A stretch of 64,000 nt of DNA from contig NZ_QVAI01000002.1 in the NCBI RefSeq assembly GCF_003427025.1, positions 372,001-436,000 on the forward strand, read 5' to 3'. Below, one piece after another: positions 16,832-30,045 of this stretch. Position 1 is the first letter of the stretch, and the number at the start of each line of letters is the position of its first letter. Source of the stretch: Jiangella endophytica. GTDB taxonomy: Bacteria > Actinomycetota > Actinomycetes > Jiangellales > Jiangellaceae. The notes below the pieces were generated by a model. That model was given only the letters and a program-made list of their open reading frames with translations. It was not told the origin of the DNA and did not search any database. The translations under genes and the position numbers were made by a program.

Positions 16832-16845
16832 CGACGGCGCCGGAG

Positions 16846-16985
16846 GCGATAGGATCGCGAATGCCCGGGCTGCGGCCCGGGTGCGACGAGTGTCTGCGAA
16901 GTCCGGTTCGATTCCGGCGCTGTCCCGCAACTGTGAAGCCGCCCGCCTGCCGCGGACGGACGAGCCAGGTCGCCAGCCTCGTGGC
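16846..16985 (+). ncRNA. Cobalamin riboswitch (AdoCbl/B12 aptamer)
   Basis: The leader shows the hallmarks of the B12 element: a 5' hairpin CCCGGGCTGCGGCCCGGG, the CCGGTTCGATTCCGG arm, the conserved core GCGCTGTCCCGCAACTGTGA (about 16917-16936), then GAAGCC, and the AGCCAGG/GCCAGCC closing box. It lies about 85 bp before btuF and would switch off the whole uptake and assembly operon when cobalamin is plentiful. Whether it acts on transcription or translation was not determined. Ends are approximate. Confidence 0.93.
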
Positions 16986-25951: not shown

Positions 25952-26710
25952 CTAGTTCTGGCTGCCGTCGAGAGTGCCCTGGGTGCTGTTGCCGGCCGTC
26001 GAGGCGGGCGTCGACTTCTTCGCCGGTGCCTTCTTGGCGGTGGCCTTCTTGGCCGGGGCACTCTTCTTCGCCGGCGCCGCCTTCTTCGCGGCCGGCTTGT
26101 CGTCGCCGGCGCCGTCGGAACCGGCTGCGGACTTCTTGGCGGCGACCGGCCCGGGCTCGTCGTCCGGCTTGGCCTCAGGTGCCGGCGCGGGTGCCCAGGG
26201 ACCCGTGGACGGGTCGTACGTCGTCCACTGATCGGACTGCCCGCGACGGCGCACCACCGCGGCGAGCGCGGCGCCCGCGGCGGCGAACCCGCCCAGCACG
26301 GCGACGACCCGGCGGCGACGCTTCTTCTTGCGCTGCTTCTCGCTCTTCTCCGCGAGCGCGGCGGTGCGCTCGGACAGGTCGTGCGCTCGCTCGGAGAACT
26401 TGTCAGCCGCGACCGCCAGCGAGTCGGCGACCCGCGGGACGACGTCGTGCAGCAGCGTGTCCTTGGCCTGGTTGGCGGCCGGGCCTACCTTCTCGCGGGC
26501 CGCCTGGACCTTCGGGCCCACCTTGTCGACCGCGGACTCGACCACCGGCGCCAGCCGCTCACGCGCGGAGTCGACCACCGGTGTCGCGGCCTCGCGGGCG
26601 CGCCGGCCGGCCTCACGTGCGGCCTGGCGGGCCTGTTCCGCAGCCTCCTGCGTGCGCACCTTGGCGTCCTCGGTGCTGCCGTTCCGCCGGATGCTGAATA
26701 GCCTGCTCAC
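25952..26710 (-). CDS. Coiled-coil membrane protein with AK-rich tail (DUF5324-like)
   Basis: 252 residues. GTG at 26708-26710 is chosen because GGGAGG precedes it by 8 bases. Layout: a long amphipathic Ala/Glu/Lys/Arg helix (residues about 18-130, apolipophorin-like repeats such as VDSARERLAPVVESAVDKVG), a KKKRRRR anchor, one membrane helix (VVAVLGGFAAAGAALAAVV), then a linker and a histone-H1-like tail of AKK/PAKKS repeats. The tail could bind DNA or acidic polymers. Resembles DUF5324-type proteins found beside ppiA in streptomycetes. Function unknown. Confidence 0.8.
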   Translation of the reverse strand: MSRLFSIRRNGSTEDAKVRTQEAAEQARQAAREAGRRAREAATPVVDSARERLAPVVESAVDKVGPKVQAAREKVGPAANQAKDTLLHDVVPRVADSLAVAADKFSERAHDLSERTAALAEKSEKQRKKKRRRRVVAVLGGFAAAGAALAAVVRRRGQSDQWTTYDPSTGPWAPAPAPEAKPDDEPGPVAAKKSAAGSDGAGDDKPAAKKAAPAKKSAPAKKATAKKAPAKKSTPASTAGNSTQGTLDGSQN

Positions 26711-26858
26711 GTTGGGCCTCCCTTGTCGGATCGCGTGCAGGGCCCCTGTCCCCGTCGTATCCCCCCGATCTTGCCTTACCGACGACCGTATGCCGACATA
26801 CGCCACGGCGTGCGAGGATGGAGCAAATCGAGGACGTCGAACAGCGAAGGGCTTACCC

Positions 26859-27383
26859 GTGGCCGACCAGCTTCATGCCACCCTGCACACCAACCGCGGC
26901 GACATCACCGTGGCACTGCTGCCGAACCACGCCCCGAAGACGGTGCGCAACTTCGTCGAGCTCGCCAAGGGCGAGCGCGAGTGGGTCAACCCGGAGACCG
27001 GTGAGAAGACCAGCGACAAGCTGTACGACGGCACCGTCTTCCACCGCGTGATCTCCGGCTTCATGATCCAGGGCGGCGACCCTCTGGGCAACGGCCGCGG
27101 CGGCCCGGGCTACGAGTTCGCCGACGAGTTCCACCCGGAGTTGGCGTTCAACAAGCCGTACCTGCTGGCCATGGCCAACGCCGGGCCGGGCACCAACGGC
27201 TCGCAGTTCTTCATCACCGTCGGCCTGACGCCGCACCTGAACCGCCGTCACACCATCTTCGGTGAGGTGGCCGACCAGAGCAGCCGCGACGTCGTCGACG
27301 CCATCGCCGCCACACCCACCGACCGCACCGACCGGCCGCTCGAGCCCGTCGTCATCGAGTCGGTCACCGTCACCGGCGGCTGA
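26859..27383 (+). CDS. ppiA: Peptidyl-prolyl cis-trans isomerase, cyclophilin type
   Basis: Cytosolic cyclophilin, 174 residues, catalysing proline isomerisation in protein folding. GTG 26859 is the start (CGAAGGG upstream); the frame extends farther but into the promoter region. The fold is complete: TNRGDITVALLPNHAPKTVRNF, FHRVISGFMIQGGDPLGNGRG with the catalytic Arg (FHRV), MANAGPGTNGSQFFIT, and HTIFGEV. A ppiA gene close to crgA near the origin is the common actinobacterial arrangement. Confidence 0.96.
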   Translation: MADQLHATLHTNRGDITVALLPNHAPKTVRNFVELAKGEREWVNPETGEKTSDKLYDGTVFHRVISGFMIQGGDPLGNGRGGPGYEFADEFHPELAFNKPYLLAMANAGPGTNGSQFFITVGLTPHLNRRHTIFGEVADQSSRDVVDAIAATPTDRTDRPLEPVVIESVTVTGG

Positions 27384-27405
27384 GACCCGAGAGCCGGCGT
27401 TCTCC

Positions 27406-28335
27406 ATGACCGGAAATGCCGGCGGTCCGGCCGGGCCGCCCGCCAGCGGCGACTCGGCCGCACCGCCGACCTGCTACCGCCACCCAGACCGCGAGACGTA
27501 CATCCGTTGCTCGCGGTGTGAGCGGCCGATCTGCCCCGAGTGCATGATCTCCGCCCCGGTCGGCTACCAGTGCCCGCAGTGCGTCGCCGAGGGCCGCAAG
27601 GGCGTGCGTCAGGGCCGCACCGTGCTGGGCGGCCACCGGCGCGACACCAGCTCCAACGTCGTCACGCTCACGCTCATCGGCATCAACGTCGTCATCTGGG
27701 TCATGGGCCTGGTCATCGGGACCCGCGGCGACTCGTTCTACGACCGCTACGCCCGAGGCATCGGCACCAACGAACTGAGTGCCCGGCTCGGCCTCGTCCT
27801 CGGCGAGCGCAACGACCCGTTCTCCTTCGGCGTCGTCGACGGGCAGTGGTACCGGCTCATCACGGCCGCGTTCACGCACGAGAACGTGCTCCACATCGGG
27901 CTGAACATGGTCGCGCTGTACATGCTCGGCAGCTCGCTGGAGCCGATCCTCGGCCGCAGCCGGTTCATCACCCTGTACCTGCTGTCCGCGCTCGGCGGTA
28001 CGGCGGCGTCGCTGCTGACCGTGTCCGACCCCTACCAGCTGTCGTACGGCGCGTCGGGCGCGGTGTACGGCCTGTTCGGTGCGCTGTTCGTGATCGCGCG
28101 GCGGCTGGGTCGCGATACCGGCGGCATCGTGGTGATCCTGGGCATCAACCTGGTGTTCGGGTTCACCGTGCCGGGTATCGACTGGCGGGCGCACCTGGGT
28201 GGTCTGGTCATCGGGACGGCGCTGGCGGCCGTGTTCGCCTACGCGCCCAAGGAGCAGCGCGGGTTGTGGGCGCTGATCGGCTCATTGGCCGCAGCCATGT
28301 TCATCACGACGGCCATCATGATCGCCGTCACCTGA
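27406..28335 (+). CDS. Rhomboid family intramembrane serine protease
   Basis: 309 residues from ATG 27406. The N-terminus has a B-box-like zinc module (CYRHPDRETYIRCSRC followed by CPECM and CPQCV). The rhomboid core follows: first helix VVTLTLIGINVVIWVMGL, the WYRLITAAFTHENVLHIGLN stretch with L1 loop His, catalytic Ser in YGASGAVYGLFGALF and catalytic His in WRAHLGGLVIG, ending with a last helix. It cleaves helices within the membrane; substrates unknown. Gene order ppiA-rhomboid-crgA is conserved in the phylum. Confidence 0.95.
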   Translation: MTGNAGGPAGPPASGDSAAPPTCYRHPDRETYIRCSRCERPICPECMISAPVGYQCPQCVAEGRKGVRQGRTVLGGHRRDTSSNVVTLTLIGINVVIWVMGLVIGTRGDSFYDRYARGIGTNELSARLGLVLGERNDPFSFGVVDGQWYRLITAAFTHENVLHIGLNMVALYMLGSSLEPILGRSRFITLYLLSALGGTAASLLTVSDPYQLSYGASGAVYGLFGALFVIARRLGRDTGGIVVILGINLVFGFTVPGIDWRAHLGGLVIGTALAAVFAYAPKEQRGLWALIGSLAAAMFITTAIMIAVT

Positions 28336-28492
28336 CGTCGTCCCGGTCGGCCTGCCCGGTGACGTGCGGCGCGGCGGGTGTCGTGTGGCGCGGCCTGGCC
28401 GGGTCCGCCGAGGAGGTCTGGTCGGGCCGGTCGAGTGGGTCAGGCCCCGGTCCGGACCGGTACGGGTTGTGACCACCTGGCGGCCGGCGGGC

Positions 28493-28800
28493 TCAGGGCT
28501 GGATCGCCTCGAGTTCGGTGAACTCTCGTGACTCGACCGGCCCCGCCTCCCATCCAGTGCCTGATCGCTTGCCGCCGCCGAACGGCGCGAACCGGGCGCC
28601 GCCGACCTGGACCTGGCCGCCAGGTCCTCCGAGCGGCCGGTGTCCACGCCGAGCATCGCACCGGACTCGACGCCCGGACCCATCCGGACCTGCTGCGCAT
28701 GGTCGCGGGCCCGTCGGGCGATGCCGAGCTCGATGTAGCCGGCGACCGCTGGCCCTGGCCTCCGGCGCGAGCGGGCCGATCGGGGCGGCTGCAGGGCGAT
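28493..28800 (-). pseudogene. Aldehyde dehydrogenase 3'-end remnant
   Basis: On the minus strand the end of an NAD-dependent aldehyde dehydrogenase is readable: QVQVGGARFAPFGGGKRSG, then ESREFTELEAIQP and a TGA at 28493, matching the family ending (APFGGYKxSG...EEFTELKxIQ). Farther upstream, in shifted frames, pieces such as AGYIELGIARRA and VDTGRSEDLAA recall earlier parts of the same C-terminal half. Catalytic Cys and Glu regions are absent and frames are broken. A dead gene; its left extent is approximate. Confidence 0.72.
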
Positions 28801-29034
28801 GTCACGTGGCCCGGCCGGACTCGCCAGGAATGCTCCTCGCCCGCCACACAGCCGGATGATGTGCCGACCTGGCCGTCATTCGGCTCGGGCGCGGGTGAAG
28901 AGCCGCTCGCGCGAGTGACGGCGGCCTGCGAGACGCCGCCTTCTGCCGCCGCTCGTCGTCCTGGCGGGGTGCGAGTCGGCGGTGCCGGCACATCACGGTG
29001 CGGACGAGCTCCGTGGCGGTGTCGTTCGCGCTCG

Positions 29035-29340
29035 GTCGACGGTGCTTCTGCCTCGGGTGCGACGGCCGGGTCGGGGTCGGCGGCGGTCGCCCTTCTCGCC
29101 CGCCACGTCGTCGGGCGGGCGGCGCCAGGTGCTGGCGGCCTGGCTCCCGCCGGCCAGGATCTGCGGGATCCCAGGTGCTGGCGGCGTGCCGTGCTGCCGG
29201 CCTGGCGGACGGTGACATGGGGTGGCGGTCTGGCTGCCGCTGACCTGGTGTGCGGGAGCCTGGCTGCCCGGCTACCGCTGGCCTGGTCGGACGGGAAGGG
29301 TCAGCGGCTCGGCCGGCTCGGCGTGGCGGACTCGGTTCCC
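29035..29340 (+). pseudogene. Degenerate cobS-like remnant
   Basis: DNA here parallels the live cobS at about 22605-22770: CTCGCC-GCCACGTCGTCGG and GGGCGGCGCC are shared nearly base for base, as is GTCAGCGGCTCGGCCGGCTC near 29299. Between the matching blocks lies about 120 bp of extra, partly repeated sequence (CCAGGTGCTGGCGG occurs twice, at about 29126 and 29171). The active-site acidic box is missing. It reads as a decayed, internally expanded copy or transferred relative of cobS. No functional product is expected. Confidence 0.68.
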
Positions 29341-29567
29341 AGAGGCGACACCTGCGTCGCGCCACTGGGCCGAGCCGGTCAGCGGTCGGCCCCGGTCCTG
29401 TCTGAGCGCACCCTGCTGTTCGCGGTGTGATCCGGTGCGCGAGTGGTGCGGACAAGCGGGAGCGTCCGCGCCGAGGTGAAACACCGCCAGCCACCAGCTG
29501 CGGCCGTGACCGACAGCGGCCAGCCCCGGCCGGCGACGCGCCGGGCGTCCACAAGCACCGTTGCGGA

Positions 29568-29651
29568 CGGTGTTATCCACAGGGGTTATCCCCACTGGGG
29601 AAAATTACACGCGTGTAATCACAGCTGTGCAATAACCTGTGGACAACACCG
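29568..29651. promoter_or_regulatory. Nested palindromes with DnaA-box-like sites
   Basis: Outer arms CGGTGTTATCCACAGG (29568-29583) and 29636-29651 are inverted with one mismatch. They contain TTATCCACA (29573-29581) and, reversed, TTGTCCACA (29638-29646), both DnaA-box consensus forms; TTATCCCCA (29586-29594) is a weaker third. Between them lie a perfect 16-bp palindrome ATTACACGCGTGTAAT (29604-29619) and CACAGCTGTG (29620-29629). This A+T-richer island sits about 280 bp upstream of the 3' end side of crgA, within gene-free DNA. Confidence 0.7.
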
Positions 29652-29678
29652 TTCCCGCAGGTCAGTGACGAAAAGCCG

Positions 29679-29936
29679 TCACTTCCAGCGCGTGGCGGTC
29701 ATGAACCCGCCGGTGATCAGACCCATGCCGATCAACAGGTTCCATCCACCGAGGTCCTGGACGAGCGGAATGTCGTCGCCGACGAGGTAGTAGACGACGA
29801 TCCACACCAGCCCGACGAGGAGCAAGGTGATCATGGTGGGGACGACCCAGCGACCAGAGACCGTCGGGTCCTTGAGCTCGCCCCGCTCCGGAGGGGTGTA
29901 GTCGTCGTCCTTGCGACGGCTGCGAGACTTGGGCAC
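29679..29936 (-). CDS. crgA: Cell division protein CrgA
   Basis: 85-residue two-helix membrane protein that in actinomycetes helps place or restrain the septum by interacting with FtsZ and PBPs. GTG start at 29934-29936 with GAGAGGAA upstream. The N-terminus is basic (PKSRSRRKDDDYTPP), followed by the family's WVVPTMITLLLVGLVWIVVYYL helix, a short loop (DDIPLVQDLGGWN) and a second helix ending ATRWK. Full length. Neighbours match the Mycobacterium and Streptomyces origin region. Confidence 0.97.
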   Translation of the reverse strand: MPKSRSRRKDDDYTPPERGELKDPTVSGRWVVPTMITLLLVGLVWIVVYYLVGDDIPLVQDLGGWNLLIGMGLITGGFMTATRWK

Positions 29937-30045
29937 GGTCGGTTCCTCTCGGTCTTGGCTGGTTGCGGTGATGCTCGGCTAGCGTAGTCGTCAGCAGGCC
30001 GAGCGCCCACATCGCGGCTTGCAGTCCCGATCGTCCCACTTGGAG

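Follow-up and report, generated by a model that had tools for sequence, protein, structure and literature searches.

What does a mirrored cluster of DnaA boxes do beside crgA, more than 30 kb away from dnaA? The question is raised by a 64,000-nucleotide stretch of the Jiangella endophytica genome (the window; positions 372,001 to 436,000 of contig NZ_QVAI01000002.1, assembly GCF_003427025.1), in which a preliminary description, made from the sequence alone, had singled out an 84-bp segment at 29568-29651. Its sequence and coordinates, mirrored arms, boxes and central palindromes are as described there. The segment is one copy of a deeply conserved element of ordered architecture, in which a module of three DnaA boxes adjoins a palindrome; the element does not depend on crgA for its place, and its palindrome recurs in front of nrdR and whiB. 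We interpret it, with a probability of roughly 0.6, as a locus close to the origin that controls DnaA and is itself gated by a cell-cycle regulator. To our knowledge, the timing of replication in actinobacteria and its tie to division are poorly understood, and the element would offer a direct handle on replication-division timing in these bacteria. Its parts, in window positions, are:

29567-29652, unstranded: the whole element with its mirrored outer arms
29567-29583 and 29636-29652, unstranded: the outer arms, complementary at 16 of 17 positions
29573-29581, plus strand: DnaA box 1, TTATCCACA, consensus; unchanged in 20 of 20 family sequences (alignment A2)
29586-29594, plus strand: DnaA box 2, TTATCCCCA, one mismatch, 4 bp past box 1
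29596-29604, minus strand: DnaA box 3, TGGGGAAAA (minus-strand reading TTTTCCCCA), 1 bp past box 2
29604-29619, unstranded: 16-bp palindrome ATTACACGCGTGTAAT, the proposed operator for a second DNA-binding protein
29620-29629, unstranded: palindrome CACAGCTGTG
29638-29646, minus strand: outer DnaA box 4, TTGTCCACA; TGTGGA unchanged in 20 of 20 family sequences

The three-box module (29573-29604) thus adjoins the 16-bp palindrome. The boxes listed in the preliminary description are all present, but it had missed box 3, which completes the module. Exact TTRTCCACA boxes number five in the surrounding 84 kb, two of them inside the element, and the 250-bp bin that contains it holds three DnaA boxes (at most one mismatch), level with the dnaA-dnaN gap as the maximum in the 84 kb. 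About 34.5 kb leftward, Pfam matches mark the end of dnaA and, after it, dnaN. A box density equal to that of the dnaA-dnaN gap would suit a second or former replication origin. We consider this extremely improbable, since an intact dnaA and dnaN, with boxes in the gap between the two, lie 34.5 kb away and an AT-rich unwinding stretch was not seen, by eye, beside the element. As to chance, simple arithmetic predicts roughly one perfect 16-bp palindrome in every 64 kb, and the symmetry, which the preliminary description had thought too ordered to be accidental, is by itself modest evidence. It was nevertheless right that chance is not the explanation: the element is evidently far from a chance arrangement because it is conserved within the genus and recurs at the same locus throughout the class.

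A search of 60 related genomes detected CrgA in 59. The element follows crgA in all 12 genomes of the genus, that of J. endophytica included, with a mean ungapped pairwise identity of 0.964 over 74 bp; conservation in sister species, on which the preliminary description had staked its reading, is therefore borne out. In contrast, the upstream flank is at random identity in the same genomes: four 40-bp blocks gave values of 0.31, 0.30, 0.32 and 0.33, and the fifth, adjoining the element, gave 0.44. The short stretch between the element and crgA has an identity of 0.67. Elsewhere in the family, the full form is present in 8 of 10 genomes and a shorter core in the remaining two. The CACA and TGTG halves of CACAGCTGTG are invariant in 20 of 20 family sequences. 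Comparison of A2 with the class-wide alignment A1 indicates that CACAGCTGTG and the fourth, outer box belong to the family form only, as neither was seen in the remaining class rows.

Alignment A1 comprises 35 rows, 26 from other families and 9 of the 22 own-family loci, the others having been omitted as near-duplicates or, for L027, for a short start. Of 37 non-family crgA loci, 11 were left out because an element with the expected orientation could not be seen in them (L030, L032, L037, L043, L046, L049, L052, L053, L054, L057 and L058); at least two of these (in G047 and G050) were later found to carry an inverted copy. Throughout A1 the three-box module adjoins a palindrome, TNACANNNNTGTNA. 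By eye, the module takes two forms: in type I a forward box is followed after 1 bp by a reverse box and after a further 4 bp by another reverse box, and in type II two forward boxes 4 bp apart are followed after 1 bp by a reverse box. The spacing of one mirrors that of the other, with a few rows off by one base. The window element is of type II, and the position and orientation of its box 2 are the same across the type II rows by eye. Within the core of box 3, all 35 rows agree at columns T26, G27 and G29, and at least 90% of them at G30.

A sequence-only model built from A1 (R1) was run against 296 genomes of the class with a completeness of at least 90% and matched 253 of them at E ≤ 0.1. 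Position was checked in 148 listed genomes of these 253, all with E ≤ 3e-8, 30 of which had been used in building R1. In 140 of the 148 (78/79 plus 62/69), the best match lay on the 3′ side of crgA, at most 800 bp away; among the 118 listed genomes outside the building of R1 (12 of them own-family), 110 had a match 3′ of crgA. The distance from the crgA stop ranged from 1 to 527 bp across the checked genomes, and the orientation was inverted relative to crgA in 11 of the 140. The genes concerned in the window are:

29679-29936, minus strand: crgA (PF06781), with the element 3′ of its stop
27262-28335, plus strand: rhomboid gene (PF01694), convergent with crgA
26328-27383, plus strand: open frame with a cyclophilin-type isomerase (ppiA; PF00160), in the same gene row

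The rhomboid gene (plus strand) and crgA (minus strand) run towards each other, and the element occupies the gap between them, with 26 bp left between it and the stop codon of crgA. It had been placed before crgA, with an initiator-controlled promoter region as one possible role; it is in fact downstream, can be inverted and in some genomes stays put when crgA is elsewhere, and a crgA promoter is ruled out.

The best match fell outside the crgA context in eight genomes, of which six were inspected, with gene names assigned by eye (G268 and G061 were left out). In G134, G158 and G166, crgA lies elsewhere and the element is directly 3′ of the ppiA-rhomboid pair; in G045 it is flanked by gyrB and a response-regulator gene. 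G287 has its best match in an unrelated location and a second, weaker match (E 2.9e-8) that follows the rhomboid gene on its 3′ side, close to crgA, which there has the reverse orientation. The rhomboid gene is thus the probable ancestral neighbour of the element. The inverted copies and the retention of the element where crgA lies elsewhere indicate that it is, judged by its placement, independent of crgA. They also bear on a 3′ RNA element or transcription terminator of crgA, an idea to which the closeness of the element to the crgA stop (26 bp here) lends itself. Inversion relative to crgA argues for a DNA site, not an RNA feature; moreover, no terminator-like site was found at the element, and an Rfam search of the window gave a single chance-level match (E 0.89) away from it. 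Together with the persistence of the element where crgA lies elsewhere, these results largely refute an RNA element or terminator, and we give it very little credence. Two further observations concern the same genomes. The element occurs twice in G287 (L106, L107), with a copy near the rhomboid gene and another about 3 Mb along the record. In the small-genome family f25, the element lies beside ppiA-rhomboid with crgA elsewhere in L101, L102 and L104, and beside gyrB in the related L103.

A search of 110 genomes across the phylum matched 29 of them at E ≤ 0.001, 22 of them outside the class. Nine of these 22 were inspected: the match lay 3′ of a CrgA match in seven (one inverted), and a CrgA match nearby was not found in the other two. 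The element is therefore a cis-element kept in most of the class families sampled and apparently beyond, in which DnaA boxes are coupled with a putative operator common to nrdR and whiB.

The mycobacteria provide a link to experiment. We searched named genomes with one CrgA query and took the best 80 of 289 relatives, of which 72 are Mycobacterium, Mycolicibacterium, Mycolicibacillus or Mycobacteriaceae and 8 are bins named otherwise; M. tuberculosis and M. smegmatis are not among the 80 loci by name. All 80 of these loci nearest to mycobacterial CrgA have an R1 match 3′ of crgA, on the opposite strand, and the type II box arrangement occurs in mycobacteria too. In M. tuberculosis the corresponding gene is Rv0011c, which we take to be crgA, and its neighbour is Rv0010c. 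The available part of a 2020 report describes five regions enriched by M. tuberculosis DnaA in IDAP-seq, Rv0010c-Rv0011c among them, and the five homologous regions in M. smegmatis by chromatin immunoprecipitation sequencing (ChIP-seq), with DnaA binding confirmed by electrophoretic mobility shift assay (EMSA) (PMC7738170). The same part describes a small palindrome and DnaA-box-like sequences at the site, and longer cells in site mutants as in dnaA mutants, by a mechanism that its authors leave open (PMC7738170). The window element is very probably orthologous to this site, because the position is the same, the sequence in close relatives corresponds and the insertion-point pentamer taken from that report fits. 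Both lie 3′ of crgA near oriC and combine a cluster of DnaA-box-like sequences with a palindrome; the available part of the report describes the site neither outside mycobacteria nor with a palindrome common to nrdR and whiB (PMC7738170). Since the orthologous locus is bound in vitro and in vivo, DnaA binding at the window element is, by orthology, well supported.

What the palindrome contributes is suggested by its other locations. An exact search of 118 class genomes for TTACACNNGTGTAA, with the backwards sequence as a control, gave 31 sites in 24 genomes against 6 sites for the control. All 31 could be placed. The crgA/rhomboid element holds 12 of them, while 11 precede nrdR and 8 precede whiB (4, 4 and 8, respectively, without the own genus). 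One site, in G061, was assigned to the element solely from the position of its model match, and a ninth candidate whiB site, L115, is a crgA element by eye. The nrdR context was confirmed by the NrdR pattern in 11 of 11 cases, the own copy also by Pfam and TIGR00244, and the whiB context by tblastn in 8 of 8, one also by PF02467. With every exact copy in one of these three contexts, it seems that a single cell-cycle regulator, possibly McdR of the MerR type, uses the palindrome as its operator.

Less exact copies extend this distribution. Upstream stretches were read for 50 of 54 nrdR matches, and the best match to the degenerate palindrome reached at least 12 of 14 positions in 35 of the 50, usually after ACATCTAGTAG and ahead of a TCCACAGG-like box, a layout that recurs across many families. 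Among the same 50, the palindrome was not seen in two f19 genomes, two f4 genomes and several others (G045, G052, G057, G031 and G054). In the own genome the exact nrdR palindrome adjoins several DnaA-like boxes, as do, by eye, the other ten exact copies before nrdR. For whiB, 46 of 50 upstream stretches could be oriented; they carry a related sequence, TGTAATTNCANNCGTGTC, both f19 genomes included. In the own nrdR promoter (L003:1490-1590), several DnaA-like boxes and the TTACACNNGTGTAA palindrome stand together with a stretch that resembles an NrdR box. Many of the whiB loci, L162 and others (L158-L187, L208-L227), have the TGTAATTNCANNCGTGTC-like sequence after a TTGAC hexamer, Streptomyces-like genomes included.

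Promoter regions that share the palindrome raise the possibility that the element is itself a transcriptional control region, at which DnaA, together with another factor, would regulate transcription nearby (of a far-side gene, an antisense RNA or crgA read-through). The mycobacterial site lies upstream of Rv0010c (PMC7738170), and the available part of a second report describes binding of M. tuberculosis HigA2 in vitro to ATCAC-N-GTGAT at the Rv0010c-Rv0011c locus and higher Rv0010c expression in a higA2 mutant (PMC11205783). The HigA2 site fits the mycobacterial palindrome. Nevertheless, the element lies between convergent genes in the window, 11 of 140 genomes have it inverted relative to crgA, and Rv0010c and Rv0011c levels are given as unchanged in dnaA mutants (PMC7738170, available part). 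A sigma-70-like promoter was sought in 29300-29960 and none was found, which counts little, as shuffled sequences predict none either. We therefore regard control of a neighbouring transcript as unlikely, and a HigA2-type toxin-antitoxin gene as an unlikely class-wide partner of the palindrome. The shared palindrome bears equally on an architectural or segregation site near the origin (for loading, anchoring or nucleoid occlusion) with the DnaA boxes secondary. The distance of 34.5 kb from dnaA, the single strong model match in the own genome and the palindrome adjoining the boxes would all fit such a site; copies before nrdR and whiB are not accounted for by a loading site, and we think it decidedly improbable.

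These considerations leave a DnaA control locus gated by a regulator as our preferred interpretation. DnaA would bind the fixed three-box module, together with the fourth outer box in the family, to form a small complex, and a dimeric regulator would bind the adjoining palindrome and set the timing of that complex. The complex would act on DnaA itself, by holding it or by changing its nucleotide state, and not on crgA transcription. If the same regulator also controls nrdR, and thus the supply of DNA building blocks, and whiB, and thus division, initiation would be tied to the division programme through the element. DnaA titration and replication-division coupling, both raised in the preliminary description, are reasonable on these grounds. 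That a regulator exists, and that it is McdR, we infer, the latter as a first guess.

Candidates for this regulator were compared across 25 selected genomes. A gene that we take to be McdR-like, partly from the neighbourhood of the bifunctional-nuclease gene in mycobacteria, lies beside that gene and encodes a MerR protein (PF13411). Its DNA-binding part is nearly constant in 30 loci, with an altered wing in one, G057; this genome has no nrdR palindrome, a single case without weight. The McdR query matched 25 of 25 genomes at E ≤ 1e-6, and 24 of these were judged true McdR-like genes; the match in G028 (5e-7, 34% identity, a 970-contig draft) was judged a different MerR gene. At L257 and similar loci, two MerR-type genes flank the bifunctional-nuclease gene in a conserved row, which we name, on our own assumption, FtsR-like, BFN and McdR-like. 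WhiA is present in 25 of 25 genomes. Several of these proteins are already linked to the genes that share the palindrome, as far as the available parts of the sources go: WhiA leaves a footprint on the nrdR promoter of Streptomyces venezuelae at GACAC (PMC3781837), the MerR protein BldO binds TGxAATTxCA at whiB (PMC5485038) and BldM binds TCACcCgnncGgGTGA with the whiB promoter as a target (PMC4125116), both in S. venezuelae, and mycobacterial McdR (Rv1830) forms a feedback loop with WhiB2 (PMC9040748). The BldO and BldM sites differ from TNACANNNNTGTNA in sequence or spacing. The TTACAC form of the palindrome, which is that of the own genome, lacks the WhiA motif GACAC; the L036 row has TGACACCGGTGTCA, and some other rows have TGACA on one side. 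In our judgement McdR is the tentative first choice, at somewhat less than even odds, ahead of WhiA, FtsR or another protein.

Several results weigh against a regulator-gated control locus. The McdR-like and WhiA genes are near-universal, so their presence cannot identify the binder, and f19 genomes possess McdR without the palindrome at the crgA locus. The Streptomyces-like f19 and f17 gave no or mostly weak R1 matches; the members read still have DnaA boxes 3′ of crgA, and the pairing of module and palindrome is therefore not indispensable. Two of the eight exceptions to the crgA context (G261 and the best match in G287) lie at places without explanation, and three genomes outside the class hold a second, weaker match away from crgA. 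As to the exact palindrome, 15 of the 31 sites come from the own genus, so that the sites are not independent, and 94 of the 118 genomes are without a copy. Finally, the initiation rate is described as unchanged in the longer-celled mycobacterial mutants, which requires no effect on initiation (PMC7738170, available part).

Other close counterparts of the element are E. coli loci that act on DnaA. Like DARS1 and DARS2, it has three DnaA boxes, one opposed to two, and is non-coding, chromosomal and outside oriC. DARS1 and DARS2 are described as equal in spacing and box orientation (PMC5742627, available part). By our reading their cores both have a spacing of 5 + 3 bp, whereas that of the element is 1 + 4 bp. 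Box I is opposite to boxes II and III, as in DARS, but the spacing does not match, and the element is therefore not filed as a DARS. With datA it shares a non-coding cluster of DnaA boxes away from oriC, which in the element would likewise act on DnaA; as far as the available sources go, datA has its own box layout and an IHF site, and a palindrome of the present kind is not described for it. DnaA-box clusters close to oriC restrain initiation in Streptomyces coelicolor and Bacillus subtilis (PMC4585315, available part), but the Streptomyces-like genomes in our sample are without a clear palindrome.

The claim that no named element of this form is known was nearly right: the mycobacterial site had been published, and a description of the general element or of its palindrome was not found in searches of the open-licence literature. 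Nor did the accessible parts of that literature yield a report joining nrdR, whiB and crgA by a binding motif, or crgA to a DnaA box. What is new here is the palindrome common to the element, nrdR and whiB, the DnaA site at this locus being already known in mycobacteria, and the element supplies a wider frame for that unexplained site reported in 2020. A bolder version, which we hold to be doubtful, is an ancient actinobacterial checkpoint at which the trio of DnaA boxes would act as one switch with the operator of a single regulator (perhaps McdR); governing nrdR and whiB as well, this regulator would gate the storage or recharging of DnaA there, so that one signal would set dNTP supply, commitment to division and the start of replication. 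Such a checkpoint would be akin to datA or DARS in its action without being either of them, and could explain why dnaA and the site are both hit in clinical mycobacterial strains.

Two minor features of the window remain. At 16836-16926, ARAGORN calls a tRNA with an undetermined anticodon, possibly falsely. Between the rhomboid gene and the element, 28336-29560 is a stretch of about 1.2 kb without a convincing gene and, by eye, with many imperfect CTGG-containing repeats; again by eye, this repeat-rich stretch is not common to the sister species.
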